Shown here: one piece after another, positions 11,089 to 22,227 of the stretch | Position numbering within the stretch: the first letter of the stretch is position 1 | Layout of the letters: every line of letters begins with the position of its first letter | Source of the DNA: a bacterium | GTDB lineage: Bacteria > DRYD01 | Assembly (NCBI GenBank): GCA_030549815.1 | Contig: JAUQQQ010000013.1 | Location: forward strand, 1 to 33,771 | DNA length: 33,771 bases | Direction: 5' to 3' | Notes under the pieces: model-generated | Seen by the model: the letters and a program-made list of their open reading frames with translations, nothing else | What the model was told of the DNA's origin: nothing | Databases searched by the model: none | Translations under genes and position numbers: made by a program

Positions 11089-12175
11089 AGCAATTATTGT
11101 TGCTGTTAGAGACAAAAATAATTACAAATATTTCGATGAAACATTAGAAGAATTAAAAGATTTATTGAGTTTTGCGGGGGCTGAACTTAAATTTGTTGTA
11201 ATTCAGAAAGCACACGAAATAAACCCTTCTACCCTTATCGGTAAAGGAAAAATTCAAGAAATTAAAAACTTGGCAGATCATTTCGATGTAAATCTAATCG
11301 TATTCCTTAACCATCTTACACCTGCGCAATTTAAGAACTTAGAAAAAGAATTTCAAAATATTAAGCTCATAGACAGAGTTGGATTAATACTCGATATTTT
11401 TGCTCAACGAGCAAGGACTATTGAAGGTAAATTGCAAGTGGAATTGGCTCAACTTAACTATCTCCTGCCAAGGATTGTAGGATATGGAAAGATGCTTTCA
11501 AGATTGGGAGGTGGAATCGGAACAAGAGGACCTGGTGAAAAACAACTTACTATCGAAAAAAGAAAAATATTGAAAAGAATAAACTACATTAGAAAAAGGC
11601 TTGAAATGGTCCAAAAAAATAGAAGTATTCAAAGAAAAGGAAGACTAAGATCAAACTACCCCATAGTTTCTATCGTAGGATATACAAATGCTGGTAAATC
11701 AACTCTTTTCAACGTTTTGACCAAATCAAACGTGGATGTTGATCGAAGAGCTTTTACAACTTTAGATCCCAAAACCGAACTTGCATACATTGATGATAAA
11801 ACTCAAGTATTACTCATAGATACAGTTGGTTTTGTAAGAAACTTACCTAAAGAACTAATGGATGCGTTTAAAGCTACTTTTGAAGAATTAATCTATAGTG
11901 ACCTTCATATACTTCTATTTGATGTTTCTAATCCAAATTTTGAAAGTCATATATCTTACACGAATAAACTATTGGATGATTTAGGTGCTTCTTTTATACC
12001 TAAAATAAATGTTTTTAATAAGATAGATAAATTAAGTGAAGAGGAAATAAATAAAATAAAAGAGAAGTATCCTGATTTTATAATGATATCTGCTAAAAAT
12101 AAACAAAATGTTGATATTTTGAAAAAACAGATAAAAAGAAAAATCTTGGAAGTAACTAATGAATATAAAAATTAG
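11078..12175 (+). CDS. hflX: Ribosome-associated GTPase HflX
   Basis: HflX binds the 50S subunit and splits or rescues stalled ribosomes under stress. The 365-residue protein begins at TTG (AAGGAG 8 bases before). The N-terminal HflX domain has LIGKGKIQEIKNLA and DRVGLILDIFAQRARTIEGK, followed by SRLGGGIGTRGPGEKQL. The G domain has G1 GYTNAGKS (201-208), G2 FTTLDP, G3 DTVGF (248-), G4 NKID (314-317) and a late SAKN. Only a short C-terminal tail follows, the compact form seen in many bacteria. It overlaps thiN upstream by 11 bases and the ABC ATPase gene downstream by 17 bases. Confidence 0.96.
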   Translation: MKDRAIIVAVRDKNNYKYFDETLEELKDLLSFAGAELKFVVIQKAHEINPSTLIGKGKIQEIKNLADHFDVNLIVFLNHLTPAQFKNLEKEFQNIKLIDRVGLILDIFAQRARTIEGKLQVELAQLNYLLPRIVGYGKMLSRLGGGIGTRGPGEKQLTIEKRKILKRINYIRKRLEMVQKNRSIQRKGRLRSNYPIVSIVGYTNAGKSTLFNVLTKSNVDVDRRAFTTLDPKTELAYIDDKTQVLLIDTVGFVRNLPKELMDAFKATFEELIYSDLHILLFDVSNPNFESHISYTNKLLDDLGASFIPKINVFNKIDKLSEEEINKIKEKYPDFIMISAKNKQNVDILKKQIKRKILEVTNEYKN

Positions 12176-12848
12176 GCTAAAGAATATTACAAAATTCTAT
12201 AAGTCAGGAGAAGAAAAAATAATAGTATTAAACAATGTTAATTTGGATATTTATGAGGGTGATTTTATTGTTTTAATGGGGCCGAGTGGTGCGGGTAAAA
12301 CAACTCTGCTTTTCATAATTTCTGGCCTTGAACAACCTTCCTTAGGAAATGTCTACTGGGACGACGTACCTATTGAAACACTTGGCGATCAAGAAATGCA
12401 AAATTATAAACTTAGAAAAATAGGATTGGTTTTCCAAAACTATTATTTGATTCCATCTTTAACTGCTTTGGAAAATGTTTGTTTACCAATGTGGTTATTG
12501 GGAGAATTGAGTGAAAGTCAAGCAAAATTAAGAGCTCAAAAACTTTTAGAATTAGTCGGAATAGAGAAAAACAGGTTCAATGATGGAGTTTCTAAATTTT
12601 CTGGTGGACAGATGCAAAGGATTGCTATCGCTCGTGCTTTGGCTAATAACCCAGATATAATCATTGCTGATGAACCTACCGGAAATTTAGATACGAAAAA
12701 CTCCAAAAATATAATGGAACTATTCAATAGAATAAATAAAGAATTTGGAAAAACTATTATAATAGCTACTCATGATCCTAAAATTGCTGCATTCTCTGAC
12801 AAAGTTATCTTTATCCAGGACGGAAAAATAACTCTAAATTATGTATAA
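12159..12848 (+). CDS. ABC transporter ATP-binding protein, LolD/MacB/FtsE-like
   Basis: The 229-residue ATPase subunit has Walker A GPSGAGKTT (41-), the Q-loop LVFQNYYLIPSLTALENV (Gln93), signature FSGGQMQRIAIARAL (147-), Walker B IIIADEPTGNLD (167-) and switch His in IIATHD. ALENV and GNLDTKNS are typical of the MacB/LolD/FtsE group, which powers export of lipoproteins, peptides or drugs at the inner membrane. No permease gene is adjacent, so the partner is elsewhere. A LolA-like protein is encoded at 30648-31457, which makes a LolD role possible but unproven. Its ATG lies inside the end of hflX. Confidence 0.9.
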   Translation: MNIKIRLKNITKFYKSGEEKIIVLNNVNLDIYEGDFIVLMGPSGAGKTTLLFIISGLEQPSLGNVYWDDVPIETLGDQEMQNYKLRKIGLVFQNYYLIPSLTALENVCLPMWLLGELSESQAKLRAQKLLELVGIEKNRFNDGVSKFSGGQMQRIAIARALANNPDIIIADEPTGNLDTKNSKNIMELFNRINKEFGKTIIIATHDPKIAAFSDKVIFIQDGKITLNYV

Positions 12849-12850
12849 TT

Positions 12851-15010
12851 ATGGAAGAAAGAACGATATCGGATAAGACTGTAAGTTATCAAGAAAGCAA
12901 AATATACTTTACGATACCAGAAATAAAAAAGTGGAAAGATTATGAAGTAGAGAGAAAAATAAGAGATAATAATCAATGTGTTTTGTATTTGATAAAGGAT
13001 GGAAAAGGAAGAAAGTATGTATTGAAAATATTCTATCCTTTTTCTCCGTTCAATGTAGAAGTAGTTGAGAGGATATACAATTTATCAAGAATGGGAGATT
13101 TTCCGAAATATTTAACAAAGGTGCAAGAGTGGGGTTATGATCAAGATTTAAGGAGCTATTATATAGTTGAGGAATACATAGAGGGGGGAGATTTAGGAGA
13201 GTATATAAAAAAGAGAAGATTAAGTAAGGAGGAATTGAAGGAATTTGTAAGGCAAATAAATGAGGGTTTAAGGTATTTACATATAAACGAGGTAGTGCAT
13301 AGCGATATAAAACCATCAAACATATTGGTAAGGTCCGAGAACCCGTTGGTATTTAGTATAAGTGATTATAATATAGGAAGTATAAAACCAAGAGGAGCGG
13401 ATATAAAGGCTACAACGTTTAAATTAACACCTGCGTATGCAGCACCTGAGAGATTTACAAACATAATAACAGAAAAAGCAGATTACTGGTCGTTAGGTAT
13501 AAGTTTATTGGAAATAATAACAGGTAAAAACCCATTCGAAAAAATAGATGCAAATTTAATAGTATATAAGATTTTAACCCAAGGAGTTGAGATTCCGAAA
13601 GACATAGAAGAATACTATAAAATTCTTTGTGAAAATCTTTTAAATCCAAACCCTGATAAAAGATGGGGATATAATGAGGTAAAAGAATATTTAGAGGGAA
13701 AATTAAAGATAAGGCAAGAAGAAAAGGGAACAACAGAACAAAAAGAAGAATTTAAGATAACTTTTAATAATAAAGAATACAGAAATTTAGAGGAGTTGTT
13801 ATTGAGTTTTTTGAGAAGTAGCGAGGATTTTCGAAGCGGAGTTAAATTATTTAAATCGAAGAGTATAGAGAAGTTGCTTAGCGATGAGGATAGGAAGAAA
13901 TTAGAGGAGATAAGGGAAAAAACGAATGATGAAGACTTAATTTTAAACCTTTTCATTAATTATAAATTTCCTTCATTACCTGTATATGTTGGTAGTAAGA
14001 AGCTATCATATGAGACAGTTATTAATGTGTTAAGAAAAATAAGAGACGGGAGTGTATTAGATTACGAAGATAAGAAGATAGCGGAGTTAATAAGAAATTA
14101 TTTGGAGAATAGAGGGAACAATATAGCAGAATATTATAGTATGTTTAGAGAGAGTTATGAGGATATGGAGTTGGAGAGATTACTGATAAATTTCAAGAAT
14201 TTCATAGTGCCAAGTAAGTTAAATGAGGAAGCGATGTATAAATTTGCGTTTACGGTTTTGGCGTTGGTTGAGAAGAATTATTACTTACCCCAAAGTTTGC
14301 AAAATTTCAGAATAGATAGAGATGTAATAGAAGCACCGAATTTTATTCCAATAGTAGGTAATTTATTAACAGTTGAGGAATTTAACAATTTAAGAGTTAA
14401 TTTAAGACCTAACAATCCGTATTACTCTCGTTTTATTGCTTTACAAAATTCCGATATTTCAGGATTTTTTCATATATCTGAGTATTTAAAAATTAGCTAT
14501 TCGAAGATATTAAATCAGAGGGTAGTTGATGAGAATTCGAGATTCGTTAAAATTTTGATGGTTTTGAATAGATATTTATCCTACTATAAGATAAGAAATC
14601 CTGAGGTTGAGTATTATCTAAGGAATACTCAACTTCTTAATATCCAAAATTTTGCGAAGGTTTATAACAATGCTCTTGAGCAGTTGGTCTATGAAATTAA
14701 TAGAGATAAATACCAAGGTTCATTTCCATTTATTGGCATTTTATTCTGGTTATTTTTATTAATTGTTGCCCTTTCATCTATATTTGGAGCATGTTCTCTT
14801 TATTACTCAATGAGCTACGTATATAGGATTATGTATGGAGAATATTTGATGATATGTTTTGTTTTTGGAATTATCTTACTTATATTATCTTTTTTTGTTG
14901 GTGGATTTTTAACTCTTTTGCAAAGAATATTGGGAATTTTTAGAAGAGGAAGATTGATAACAAAAGAGGAATTAAGAAGAAAAATTGAATATGAAGCATC
15001 TCTGATCTAA
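12851..15010 (+). CDS. Ser/Thr protein kinase-like membrane protein, copy 1
   Basis: The 719-residue protein has an N-terminal eukaryotic-like kinase domain (about 30-285). Visible are the ATP lysine in YVLKIF (Lys59), EEYIEGGDLGEYI, HSDIKPSNIL (His150, Asp152, Lys154, Asn157), AYAAPERF (198-) and DYWSLGISLLEIITGKNPF. The glycine-rich loop is absent, HRD is HSD and DFG is DYN (172-174). The catalytic Asp and metal-binding Asp remain, so activity is possible but not assured. Residues about 301-420 hold a region (FNNKEYRNLEELLLSFLRS) like an extension seen in other bacterial kinases. Two hydrophobic segments lie near 622-650 and 660-695, so it is probably anchored at the C-terminus. Copy 2 follows directly at 15015. 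No ribosome binding site is seen, and the start is 2 bases past the ABC gene stop. Confidence 0.8.
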   Translation: MEERTISDKTVSYQESKIYFTIPEIKKWKDYEVERKIRDNNQCVLYLIKDGKGRKYVLKIFYPFSPFNVEVVERIYNLSRMGDFPKYLTKVQEWGYDQDLRSYYIVEEYIEGGDLGEYIKKRRLSKEELKEFVRQINEGLRYLHINEVVHSDIKPSNILVRSENPLVFSISDYNIGSIKPRGADIKATTFKLTPAYAAPERFTNIITEKADYWSLGISLLEIITGKNPFEKIDANLIVYKILTQGVEIPKDIEEYYKILCENLLNPNPDKRWGYNEVKEYLEGKLKIRQEEKGTTEQKEEFKITFNNKEYRNLEELLLSFLRSSEDFRSGVKLFKSKSIEKLLSDEDRKKLEEIREKTNDEDLILNLFINYKFPSLPVYVGSKKLSYETVINVLRKIRDGSVLDYEDKKIAELIRNYLENRGNNIAEYYSMFRESYEDMELERLLINFKNFIVPSKLNEEAMYKFAFTVLALVEKNYYLPQSLQNFRIDRDVIEAPNFIPIVGNLLTVEEFNNLRVNLRPNNPYYSRFIALQNSDISGFFHISEYLKISYSKILNQRVVDENSRFVKILMVLNRYLSYYKIRNPEVEYYLRNTQLLNIQNFAKVYNNALEQLVYEINRDKYQGSFPFIGILFWLFLLIVALSSIFGACSLYYSMSYVYRIMYGEYLMICFVFGIILLILSFFVGGFLTLLQRILGIFRRGRLITKEELRRKIEYEASLI

Positions 15011-15014
15011 GTGT

Positions 15015-17189
15015 ATGGAAGAAAGGACGATATCAGATAAGACTGTAAGTTATCAAGAAAGTAAAATATACTTTACGATACCAGAAATAAAAAAGTGGAA
15101 AGATTATGAAGTAGAGAGAAAAATAAGAGAAAATAATCAATGTGTTTTGTATTTGATAAAGGATGGAAAAGGAAGAAAATATGTATTGAAAATATTCTAT
15201 CCTTTTTCTCCGTTCAATGTAGAAGTAGTTGAGAGGATATACAATTTATCAAGAATGGGAGATTTTCCGAAATATTTAACAAAGGTGCAAGAGTGGGGTT
15301 ATGATCAAGATTTAAGGAGCTATTATATAGTTGAGGAATACATAGAAGGGGGAGATTTAGGAGAGTATATAAAAAAGAGAAGATTAAGTAAGGAGGAATT
15401 GAAGGAATTTGTAAGGCAAATAAATGAGGGATTAAGGTATTTACATATAAACGAGGTAGTGCATAGCGATATAAAACCATCAAACATATTGGTAAGGTCC
15501 GAGAACCCGTTGGTATTTAGTATAAGTGATTATAATATAGGAAGTATAAAGCCAAGGGGAGCGGATATAAAGGCTACAACGTTTAAATTAACACCTGCGT
15601 ATGCATCACCTGAAAGATTTACAAACATAATAACAGAAAAAGCAGATTACTGGTCGTTAGGAATAAGTTTATTAGAAATAATAACAGGTAAAAATCCATT
15701 TGAGAAAATAGATGCAAATTTAATAGTATATAAGATTTTAACCCAAGGAGTTGAGATTCCGAAAGACATAGAGGAATACTATAAAATTCTTTGTGAAAAT
15801 CTTTTAAATCCAAACCCTGACAAGCGCTGGGGATATAATGAAGTAAAAGAGTATTTGGAAGGAAAATTAAAGATAAGGCAAGAAGAAAAGGGAACAACAG
15901 AACAAAAACAAAAATTTAAGATAGTTTTTAATAATAAAGAATACAGAAATTTAGAGGAGTTATTATTGAGTTTTTTGAGAAGTACCGAAGATTTCAGAAG
16001 TGGAGTTAATTTATTTAAATCAGGAAGTATAGAGAAGTTGCTTAGTGATGAGGATAAGAAAAAATTAAAGGAGATAAGGGAAAAAACGAATGATGAAGAC
16101 TTAATTTTAAACCTTTTTATTAACTACAAATTTCCCTCATTACCTGTATATATTGGTAGTAAGAAGCTCTCATATGAGACAGTTATTAATGTATTAAGAA
16201 AGATAAGGGATAAAGATGTATTGGATTATGAAGATAAAAAGATAGCGGAGTTAATAAGGAATTATTTGGAGAATAGAGGGAACAATATAGCGGAATATTA
16301 TAGTATGTTTAAAGAGAGTTATGAGGATATGGAATTGGAGAGATTATTGATAAATTTGAAGAATTTCATAGTGCCAAGTAAGTTAAACGAGGAAGCGATG
16401 TATAAATTTGCATTTACGGTTTTGGCGTTGGTTGAGAAGAATTATTACTTACCCCAAAGTTTGCAAAATTTCAAAATAGAAAGGGATATAATCGAAGTAG
16501 CAAATTTTATTCCAATAGTTGGGAATTTATTAACTATTGAGGAGTATAACAATCTGAGAGTTAATATAAGACCTAATAATCCATATTATTCCCGTTTTAT
16601 TGCTTTGCAGACTGCAGATATTACGGAGTTTTTTCATATATCTGAGTATTTAAAGAATAACTATTCGAAGATATTAAATCAGAGGATAATAGATGAGAAT
16701 TCAAGGTTCGTTAAAATTTTGATAGTTTTGAATAGATATTTATCCCACTACAGGATAAAGAATCCAGAAGTTGAGTATTATCTAAAGAATACTGAGCTTC
16801 TTAATAGCCAAAATTTTGCGAAGGTTTATAATAATTCTCTTGATCAGTTGGTTTATGAAATTAATAGAGGTAATAAACACCAAGGTTCATTTCCATTTAT
16901 TGGTATTTTATTCTGGTTATTTTTATTAATTTTATTAATTCTTGCCCTTTCATATATATTCGTATCATGTTTTTTTTATAATTCAATGAGCGATGCATTA
17001 TATAGGATTATGTATGGGGAATATTTAACGATATGTTTTGTTTGTGGAATTATCTTGCTTATATTATCTCTTTTTGTTTATGAATTTTTAACTTTTTTAC
17101 AAGAAATATTGGGGATTTTTAAAGGAGGAAGAGTAATCACAAAAGAGGAATTAAGAAGAAAAATCGAGGAAGAGGCTGAGAAATTATGA
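15015..17189 (+). CDS. Ser/Thr protein kinase-like membrane protein, copy 2
   Basis: The 724-residue protein is a tandem paralogue of the preceding gene, with the same layout: kinase domain, middle helical region, two C-terminal membrane segments. Residues 1-298 differ from copy 1 at only two places that I see (Asp39 to Glu, Ala198 to Ser in AYASPERF). From about residue 299 differences become frequent and reach their highest density around the membrane segments. The same deviations from kinase consensus (no Gly loop, HSD, DYN) are present. Its TGA overlaps the ATG of nadE (ATGA). The contrast between near-identical and diverged halves suggests gene conversion of the kinase half or selection on it. 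Confidence 0.8.
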   Translation: MEERTISDKTVSYQESKIYFTIPEIKKWKDYEVERKIRENNQCVLYLIKDGKGRKYVLKIFYPFSPFNVEVVERIYNLSRMGDFPKYLTKVQEWGYDQDLRSYYIVEEYIEGGDLGEYIKKRRLSKEELKEFVRQINEGLRYLHINEVVHSDIKPSNILVRSENPLVFSISDYNIGSIKPRGADIKATTFKLTPAYASPERFTNIITEKADYWSLGISLLEIITGKNPFEKIDANLIVYKILTQGVEIPKDIEEYYKILCENLLNPNPDKRWGYNEVKEYLEGKLKIRQEEKGTTEQKQKFKIVFNNKEYRNLEELLLSFLRSTEDFRSGVNLFKSGSIEKLLSDEDKKKLKEIREKTNDEDLILNLFINYKFPSLPVYIGSKKLSYETVINVLRKIRDKDVLDYEDKKIAELIRNYLENRGNNIAEYYSMFKESYEDMELERLLINLKNFIVPSKLNEEAMYKFAFTVLALVEKNYYLPQSLQNFKIERDIIEVANFIPIVGNLLTIEEYNNLRVNIRPNNPYYSRFIALQTADITEFFHISEYLKNNYSKILNQRIIDENSRFVKILIVLNRYLSHYRIKNPEVEYYLKNTELLNSQNFAKVYNNSLDQLVYEINRGNKHQGSFPFIGILFWLFLLILLILALSYIFVSCFFYNSMSDALYRIMYGEYLTICFVCGIILLILSLFVYEFLTFLQEILGIFKGGRVITKEELRRKIEEEAEKL

Positions 17190-20307: not shown

Positions 20308-20372
20308 AGAGAAAGATTTTTGGAAAAATGTGTATTAGTATTTGTATGTATTGAGGATTTTCTTGTTTCAGT

Positions 20373-20617
20373 GTTTCTACAGAAGGATGTTTTTATTGCT
20401 GTACCTATTGCCCAAGCCCATATTTGTCACCTTCGTATAGTAAGCAAAGCAATAATTGCAAAAGAGTATTGAAGGATTAATAACGGAAGAAAGACACCAT
20501 AATTCGTTGTTTGCTAAAGGTTATGGATAGGATTATGGGATAAAGGTTTGTTTTCAATGTTCGAGGATAAAGAAGCTAGATTACGTTCCAGAGTCATTAG
20601 CTGTTTTTTGATAGCTT
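20373..20617 (+). pseudogene. Possible remains of a radical SAM gene
   Basis: From 20373 a frame reads VSTEGCFYCCTYCPSPYLSP and stops after KRVLKD. In spacing and content it looks like the TxGCP..C.YCPSPYL region of B12-binding-type radical SAM proteins. After a frame change the text continues ITEERHHNSLFAKGYG, a stop, then DYGIKVCFQCSRIKKLDYVP and ESLAVF before another stop near 20610. No single frame is open, and there is no start with a ribosome binding site. It could be chance in T/G-rich sequence, but the run of Cys, Pro and Tyr is striking. Confidence 0.3.
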
Positions 20618-20644
20618 TGAACTTAGTTTAGGTATATGTTTCTC

Positions 20645-20662
20645 AAAATACCTTATTAGGTA
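20645..20662 (-). terminator. Weak terminator-like hairpin after the radical SAM gene
   Basis: On the minus strand TACCT-AATA-AGGTA (20649-20662) is followed by TTTTGAG. The stem is only 5 pairs, but it is the only such structure downstream of the maturase gene. Confidence 0.3.
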
Positions 20663-20737
20663 GCTTTTTGGTAGCATTTGTTGTCTTTGTTGTATTTACC
20701 TGTTAGAAAAGTTTTGTTTAGTATGCAAAGCGGATTA

Positions 20738-21820
20738 CTATGTTTTAATTAACTGTGAGTACTCTTTATGAAATATTTTATAGTCGCAGCAAGGGATGTA
20801 TTTATCTTTGATAGTTTGTAAAGGACAGCTTAAACCAAAACAATTTTCAAGAAAACTACAAGATTGACATTTACTTTCATTCATTGCATTTCTTTCATAC
20901 CAAATCTTATGTTTGTTTTGGTCTATAAAAATTTCTCCGTTTTGATTAATGTATCCTACTGTGTTTAATTCGTCATCCTCAAGTATTATTGTGCATTTTT
21001 GTATTTTACCATTGGCTCTTATGACAAAGTGGTTAGGTTTGCCTGCATAGCAAACAGTTCCTAATTTTCCAGACATATCGTAAATGGATAGTCCTTTTTT
21101 AATTGCGTAATTGTAGATATCGAATATTTGTTTTTTATTTATTAAATTTATTTTTCCTTGTTTTATATTTTCAGATCCGTAACCGCCCCAATCTTTAACT
21201 TGGTACAAAAGTAGTTTATATCTAATATCTTTTGAGAAATGGATTGATAGTTGGTCAATAAGTTGAAAAACACTTTCGAAATTTTCTTTTGTTACATTAA
21301 CCCTTATTATTATTTCAAAGTTTTGATTGAATTTTTTAGTATTAAGAATATTATTGAATATTCTGGAGAAGGTATCGATTTTTTTTGTGGATAAATTGCG
21401 TTGGTTATTATGGAATTCTTTTGTACCATCCAGTGTTATTTGGAAAGAGATGATGTTATTATTTATTAGATAAGAGAAGTAGTTTTCGCTTAGGAGAAAT
21501 CCGTTTGTTGTAATAGATCCTGTGATTTTACAATCCAAGTTTTTTATTTCCTCTATTATTTTTTGGATATATCTAAATCCTAATAGAGGTTCCCCTCCAA
21601 AGAAGGACAACTTTATTGAGGAAGGACTGAATTTTCTTACAAGATTTTTTATACCTTCAATGACATATGGTTTTATGAAAATTTTTCTAAATGTTTCGTA
21701 GCAATAGACACATCTGAAATTACAATCTTCGGTTGGGAATATTATCAACCCCAATTCATTAGACAAAAAAATTTCTTTGAAGGTTTGTATTAATGCATCT
21801 ATTCTTTTGTTTTGGCTCAT
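20738..21820 (-). CDS. Radical SAM/SPASM peptide-maturase-like protein
   Basis: The protein has 360 residues from the ATG at 21820. This ATG overlaps the stop of the peptide gene (ATGA), which favours it over an in-frame TTG at 21829. The radical SAM cluster motif is CNFRCVYC (Cys33, Cys37, Cys40), followed by SFFGGEPLL (72-80), TTNGFLL and ITLDGTKEFHN. The C-terminal SPASM domain has CYAGKPNHFVIRANGKIQKC (C-x13-G-x4-C), then CQSCSFLENCFGLSC (C-x2-C-x5-C-x4-C) and a final CC in PCCDYKIF, enough to bind two further Fe-S clusters. This layout is that of enzymes that modify ribosomal peptides by thioether or C-C bonds, or of sulfatase-maturase relatives. Coupling to a small peptide gene ending in two cysteines supports the peptide role. 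No transporter or protease is adjacent. Confidence 0.85.
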   Translation of the reverse strand: MSQNKRIDALIQTFKEIFLSNELGLIIFPTEDCNFRCVYCYETFRKIFIKPYVIEGIKNLVRKFSPSSIKLSFFGGEPLLGFRYIQKIIEEIKNLDCKITGSITTNGFLLSENYFSYLINNNIISFQITLDGTKEFHNNQRNLSTKKIDTFSRIFNNILNTKKFNQNFEIIIRVNVTKENFESVFQLIDQLSIHFSKDIRYKLLLYQVKDWGGYGSENIKQGKINLINKKQIFDIYNYAIKKGLSIYDMSGKLGTVCYAGKPNHFVIRANGKIQKCTIILEDDELNTVGYINQNGEIFIDQNKHKIWYERNAMNESKCQSCSFLENCFGLSCPLQTIKDKYIPCCDYKIFHKEYSQLIKT

Positions 21821-22050
21821 TGAGGACAATTTGAATTACATCTATAAATGTTAATTTCTGAACGACTATCTTTATTTTTCTCATCCGTTTGTTGATTTTC
21901 TTCTTTTGCTTGGAGTTTATTAACTAAGTTTTCCAAATCTAAATCAAGACCAGATAGGGTAACATCAAAGTTTTCCCCTTTTTCATTGGTAACCGTGATT
22001 TTAAATTGTTTTTCTCCTACTTTTTCTATATGAACTTTAGGATTTTCCAT
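21817..22050 (-). CDS. Putative RiPP precursor peptide
   Basis: The product has 77 residues. Residues 1-45 look folded: alternating KVHIEKVGEKQFKITVTNEK strands and the acidic LSGLDLDLENLVNKLQ helix. Residues 46-66 are a hydrophilic Lys/Glu/Gln/Asp linker. The tail IYRCNSNCPQ (68-77) carries the only two cysteines (71, 75). A conserved-looking leader, a spacer and a short Cys-bearing core is the build of a peptide modified by the overlapping radical SAM/SPASM gene. A strong GGAGGTG ribosome binding site precedes the ATG. No double-Gly or other cleavage site is evident. I do not recognise the family. The alternative is a small partner protein of the enzyme that is not itself modified. Confidence 0.6.
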   Translation of the reverse strand: MENPKVHIEKVGEKQFKITVTNEKGENFDVTLSGLDLDLENLVNKLQAKEENQQTDEKNKDSRSEINIYRCNSNCPQ

Positions 22051-22227
22051 TATTAATTCACCTCCCTCTACTGTATATATATTAGTGTTAAAAAATTTTT
22101 TTCCTTTTTTTAAAAAGTTTTGTTCTTTTATGAGTTGCTAATTGTGAAATTGGTTTATAACGAGGAGGATAATTTATATCAAGAAAAAACTATCTAAGTA
22201 GGTAAATGAGTAGAAGGGGGGTAGGAA

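Follow-up and report, generated by a model that had tools for sequence, protein, structure and literature searches.

A radical SAM/SPASM gene pair with a Cys-tailed peptide as a predicted divergent member of a broad, mostly undescribed peptide-modification family

In a 33,771-nucleotide stretch of bacterial DNA (hereafter the window), we detected a reverse-strand gene pair that probably forms a minimal two-gene RiPP cassette, with a product predicted to carry two Asn-Cys non-alpha thioether rings and to be 4 Da lighter than the unmodified peptide. The gene of the 77-residue precursor peptide (21817-22050), preceded by its ribosome-binding site region (GGAGGTGA, 22051-22067), is coupled to that of a radical SAM/SPASM maturase (20738-21820) through an ATGA stop/start overlap (21817-21820). 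The first-pass annotation had described such an overlapping unit as a RiPP candidate; open reading frames and motifs confirm the unit, and because homologous loci show this pairing too, its reading as a putative RiPP precursor with a SPASM maturase is well supported. The cassette is predicted to be a divergent member of a broad, mostly undescribed peptide-modification family that spans about 11 phyla.

The maturase frame opens at a TTG (21829), and the ATG at 21820 is the likely start, giving a protein of 360 residues. It matches the Pfam model Radical_SAM (4.3e-15) and contains the CX3CX2C motif of the radical SAM fold (C33/C37/C40), an auxiliary motif C257-x13-G-x4-C276 and a CX2CX5CX4C motif (318/321/327/332; CQSCSFLENCFGLSC) that is followed by a CC pair (344/345). 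The SPASM cysteine set is complete, with both auxiliary-cluster motifs, and the x4 of the last gap is the same in relatives that bear an N-terminal domain. An AlphaFold2 model built on a 37-row alignment (pLDDT 87, pTM 0.88) has CteB as the nearest solved fold, along with anSME, and SkfB is among both the sequence and the structural matches. The enzyme has no N-terminal recognition (RRE) domain, as CX3CX2C begins 32 residues from the start, and none of the neighbouring genes in the window was recognised as a separate RRE gene. An RRE within the enzyme or nearby is common for RiPP pairs but not universal. Judged from the motifs, the lack of a recognition domain next to a full SPASM domain is an unusual combination.

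The precursor peptide consists of a predicted folded leader (residues 1-54), a hydrophilic spacer and the core EINIYRCNSNCPQ. Its only two cysteines, C71 and C75, are within IYRCNSNCPQ, and the tail has both Asn spacings, N67-IYR-C71 (Asn at -4) and N72-SN-C75 (Asn at -3); these are the proposed thioether pairs (codons at 21820-21858, reverse strand). The folded look that had been ascribed to the N-terminus is borne out by a single-sequence model, which predicts strands at 5-12, 15-21 and 27-33 and a helix at 39-54, with block-mean pLDDT of 82-91 for residues 1-30 and a low-confidence tail. The model had no significant match among solved structures in the PDB, and a view of the leader as half of an RRE remains speculation. 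Sequence searches found no homologues of the peptide among relatives, viral contigs and plasmids; one match (G001, E 0.03) was discarded because it is inside a 1069-residue frame.

Both genes are single-copy in the 1.59 Mb assembly of the window. The cassette was not found in three genomes of the same genus, two of the same family and one of the same order, in which single absences are weak evidence because the genomes are 71-88% complete. To the left of the cassette are genes for NAD synthase, a phosphoesterase, a small hypothetical protein and a pterin dehydratase, and to the right is leuC. In the sister genome G002, leuC is on a different contig from the left-side genes and has a different gene upstream; together with the absences in the sister genomes, this gives the cassette the look of an accessory pair of genes at a site of rearrangement. 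Approximately 430 bp without a convincing gene (20308-20737) separate the pterin dehydratase gene from the end of the maturase gene and, taken with the split synteny in G002, look like a rearrangement scar. Before the NAD synthase gene, the forward strand encodes two consecutive proteins of about 720 residues (12851-17189), each with a Ser/Thr kinase domain at residues 98-279, that look like a tandem duplication. The first-pass annotation had noted no transporter, protease or immunity gene nearby. This holds for the genes adjoining the cassette; a gene for an ABC ATPase (12159-12848) is about 8 kb off on the opposite strand. Export of the C39 type was rejected, as the assembly yielded no C39 peptidase.

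Using tblastn against plasmids, we found homologues of the maturase in Deinococcus (34-35% identity) as well as in Sinorhizobium, Acetobacter, Streptomyces and Bradyrhizobium, each adjoined by small Cys-tailed peptide genes. The linkage of a small peptide gene to the maturase thus recurs in homologues. In 84,980 scanned species genomes there were 269 relatives of the enzyme, the best 80 of which were used, and a single-sequence search of viral contigs found no maturase. A Thermaceae homologue with about 34% identity to the window enzyme is paired with a peptide that ends FLPNIGCNTNCNSNC (compared with EINIYRCNSNCPQ in the window) and has the segment NIGCNTNCNSNC. Two Deinococcus peptides end DINIYRCGSAAL and DVNIYKCGASAL, and a Truepera peptide ends ISFNFKCNVTG.

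These tails bear on the earlier statement that no family with the window tail was known, which no longer stands. The window-type motif occurs as INIYRC and VNIYKC in the two Deinococcus peptides beside homologous enzymes, and CN[ST]NC ends both the window and the Thermaceae peptides. Across 1.35 million residues of six-frame short open reading frames, [IV]N[IV]Y[RK]C was found only in the window and these two Deinococcus peptides. Homologues without both cysteines had been named as grounds for giving up the RiPP reading, and such homologues do exist in part: the Deinococcus tails keep a single Cys, the first, and this counts against two rings. The first Cys itself is kept, and one ring would therefore be the conserved minimum.

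Several related loci have further features. On Deinococcus megaplasmids (L032 and L033) the maturase is joined to a gene for an LLM-class oxidoreductase, with two divergent peptide genes; the peptide tails of L032 are INIYRCGSAAL and IIIDIMCRG, and a lantibiotic dehydratase homologue adjoins the peptide genes of L032. These clusters are more elaborate versions within this family. Peptides from Planctomycetota, Pseudomonas and viral contigs (L115, L117, L119 and L120) have several NxxC-like repeats per tail. Those of Nocardiopsis-type and Longirhabdus loci (L049, L063 and L056) end exactly in IDFGC or INIIAC, with a single C-terminal Cys that follows Asp or Asn by three or four residues, and the adjoining enzymes are longer relatives. 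Related maturases are also encoded on viral-classed contigs (L126 and L119-L123), with a leader/Cys-tail peptide adjoining the maturase in L126 (tail SFIDTNCSCNV) and L119. In Clostridia/Lachnospiraceae (L088, 5086-5689, and L101, 3526-5299), short Cys-rich peptides, e.g., NNCTNKTC, adjoin the maturase, as does an acyl-carrier-like small protein.

An IQ-TREE phylogeny of 104 enzymes placed the window maturase within a clade of 39 rows (SH-aLRT 96) that includes about 11 phyla. Deinococcus and Thermaceae enzymes are near the base of this clade, and the rest are short enzymes of Bacteroidota, Chlorobiota, Cyanobacteriota, Pseudomonadota, Actinomycetota, Acidobacteriota, Planctomycetota, Myxococcota, Eisenbacteria and one archaeon. 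The exact place of the window enzyme inside the clade is unsure because its branch is long, which also counts against the two-ring reading. Most members of the clade likewise have no RRE. Among the clade enzymes that could be parsed, those of Thermaceae and one Deinococcus locus (L033) combine an N-terminal extension with the full SPASM cysteines, the short enzymes have no CX2CX5CX3-4C and mostly no extension, and the window enzyme differs from these in that the extension is gone and the full cysteine set is kept. The neighbours of its nearest relatives have no transporter in common, which fits a minimal unit of two genes. We found no description of the clade in the openly readable literature, nor any literature behind the names of the family models.

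For the spacing of Asn and Cys, peptides were selected with an HMM of the leader (VxxDexGkVVIxNPE-type) so as not to pick them by their tails; an earlier hand-picked set was dropped because it was biased by the motif itself. In 30 distinct tails, which are related sequences retrieved with seeds chosen by eye with the Asn-Cys marks in view, Asn was found at -3 from Cys in 38 cases, a count that none of 2000 shuffles reached (10.7 expected), and at -4 in 21 cases, a count reached by 1 of 2000 (9.9 expected). No other Asn offset in these tails reached this level, and HMM matches from outside the seed set have Asn at -3 or -4 as well. When one peptide was kept per locus, Asn at -3 or -4 was present in 22 of 22 loci (shuffle mean 11.8, maximum 19) and for 43 of 55 cysteines (shuffle mean 15.7, maximum 26); 21 of these loci belong to the 39-row clade, and the Truepera locus is outside the tree set. 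The predicted beta-beta-beta-alpha leader of the window peptide, a second unusual feature, had no match to the family leader HMM, which counts against two rings in the window peptide. The window tail alone gave a shuffle value of 0.087 for Asn at -3 or -4 of both cysteines, i.e., it is not improbable by composition, and so the case for Asn-Cys pairing in the window rests on the homologues. The window would thus join the family via its enzyme, gene order and tail rather than via its leader.

The first-pass annotation had expected thioether or C-C crosslinks. The Asn spacing favours the thioether part and narrows the likely bond to one between Cys and Asn, and a C-C bond is less likely. In NxxcB of Streptococcus orisratti, Cys23 is joined to the beta-carbon of Asn20, with Asn at -3 (PMC8326336; PMC13361665). 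PapB makes the reverse arrangement, from Cys to a downstream Asp or Glu; each ring takes off 2 Da, and the enzyme is tolerant of the spacing (PMC9413430). Given these precedents, a two-ring peptide with Asn-Cys non-alpha thioethers is the most likely reading. The maturase would cleave SAM and take a hydrogen, probably that on the beta-carbon, from the side chains of Asn67 and Asn72. An auxiliary 4Fe-4S cluster probably holds Cys71 and Cys75, which would close onto the Asn carbons and leave two small thioether rings (N67-C71 and N72-C75) at a cost of 2 Da each. Because the maturase has no recognition domain, the predicted beta-beta-beta-alpha leader probably binds to the enzyme itself.

The same cassette might instead make a sactipeptide, a product with its Cys sulfurs bonded to alpha-carbons. 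SkfB, itself a match of the window enzyme, is one of the SPASM maturases that form such bonds, and short sactionine rings exist in QmpB and streptosactin (PMC13361665), yet the known acceptors need not be Asn, whereas Asn at -3 or -4 is strongly enriched here, and we regard a sactipeptide as unlikely. We give a lower probability to another crosslink or edit of the tail, either a C-C or C-O ring built on Tyr or, with free cysteines, chemistry on Asn or the backbone such as epimerisation or splicing: Tyr69 is part of NIYRC and persists in the Deinococcus tails, but most tails of the family (NIGC, NIFC, NVNC and NGNC) have no Tyr while Cys and Asn are constant.

It is highly improbable that the Cys tail serves as a metal or Fe-S ligand or a redox handle, with the peptide an accessory subunit of an enzyme that acts on another substrate. 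The folded N-terminal mini-domain and the lack of export genes would suit such a subunit, but the Asn spacing bias and the recurrent multi-Cys repeat tails fit a substrate better, and no gene for another substrate is linked.

An intracellular or signalling role for the product would be more likely than that of a bacteriocin, since the cassette comes with no protease, exporter or immunity gene of its own. We tentatively extend this to a wider proposal, possible but short of probable, in which the window would belong to an unnamed class of Asn-x2-3-Cys thioether peptides, horizontally scattered over about 11 phyla (an archaeon among them), with intracellular or signalling roles in place of export. 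Its maturases, mostly without a recognition domain, would read a folded beta-rich leader directly, and the window enzyme would be an intermediate in which the recognition domain is lost and both auxiliary clusters are kept. An orphan two-gene cassette becomes a specific prediction of two Asn-Cys rings and -4 Da, with a core rule (Asn three to four residues before Cys) that could be read from sequence across a wide family. A compact maturase with both auxiliary clusters and no recognition domain could help to show why that domain and the second auxiliary cluster are needed, and could be put to use as a small enzyme for making thioether-stapled peptides.

Among known systems, the anaerobic sulfatase maturase anSME resembles the window enzyme as a compact SPASM protein of about 370 residues without a recognition domain and is a close structural match, but it acts on Cys or Ser of sulfatases and has no linked peptide gene, and its model matches the window enzyme weakly in sequence (66.6 compared with 349 bits). 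The best NCBIfam match of the window and Deinococcus enzymes is TIGR04463 (rSAM_vs_C_rich). At 139 bits the window enzyme is below the cut-off of 525 for this equivalog, and the match starts at model position 78, the first 77 positions (an N-terminal domain of about 75 residues) being missing. The ranthipeptide systems PapA/PapB (freyrasin) and CteA/CteB (SCIFF) also have SPASM enzymes that make non-alpha thioethers, and CteB is the nearest solved fold. CteB, however, has an N-terminal recognition domain that the window maturase lacks, and the PapB model matches the window enzyme (6e-29, 101 bits) far under its cut-off of 340. In both systems the acceptor (Asp/Glu or Thr) is downstream of Cys, whereas neither Cys of the window peptide is followed by Asp, Glu or Thr; with no acidic residue after C71 or C75, a freyrasin-type CX3D/E bond was ruled out. 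NxxcA/NxxcB, from the NxxC subfamily of RaS-RiPPs, share with the window a Cys with Asn at -3 and a SPASM enzyme, which in NxxcB makes a Cys-Asn beta-thioether (PMC8326336, PMC13361665). They differ in being streptococcal and Rgg-linked, with no Streptococcus among the best 80 of the 269 window homologues, and the window has two candidate rings and an additional NxxxC spacing. N72-S-N-C75 has the NxxC motif, with Asn three residues before Cys, and N67-C71 is one residue longer. By the shared motif, the window peptide may work like an NxxC peptide rather than be one.
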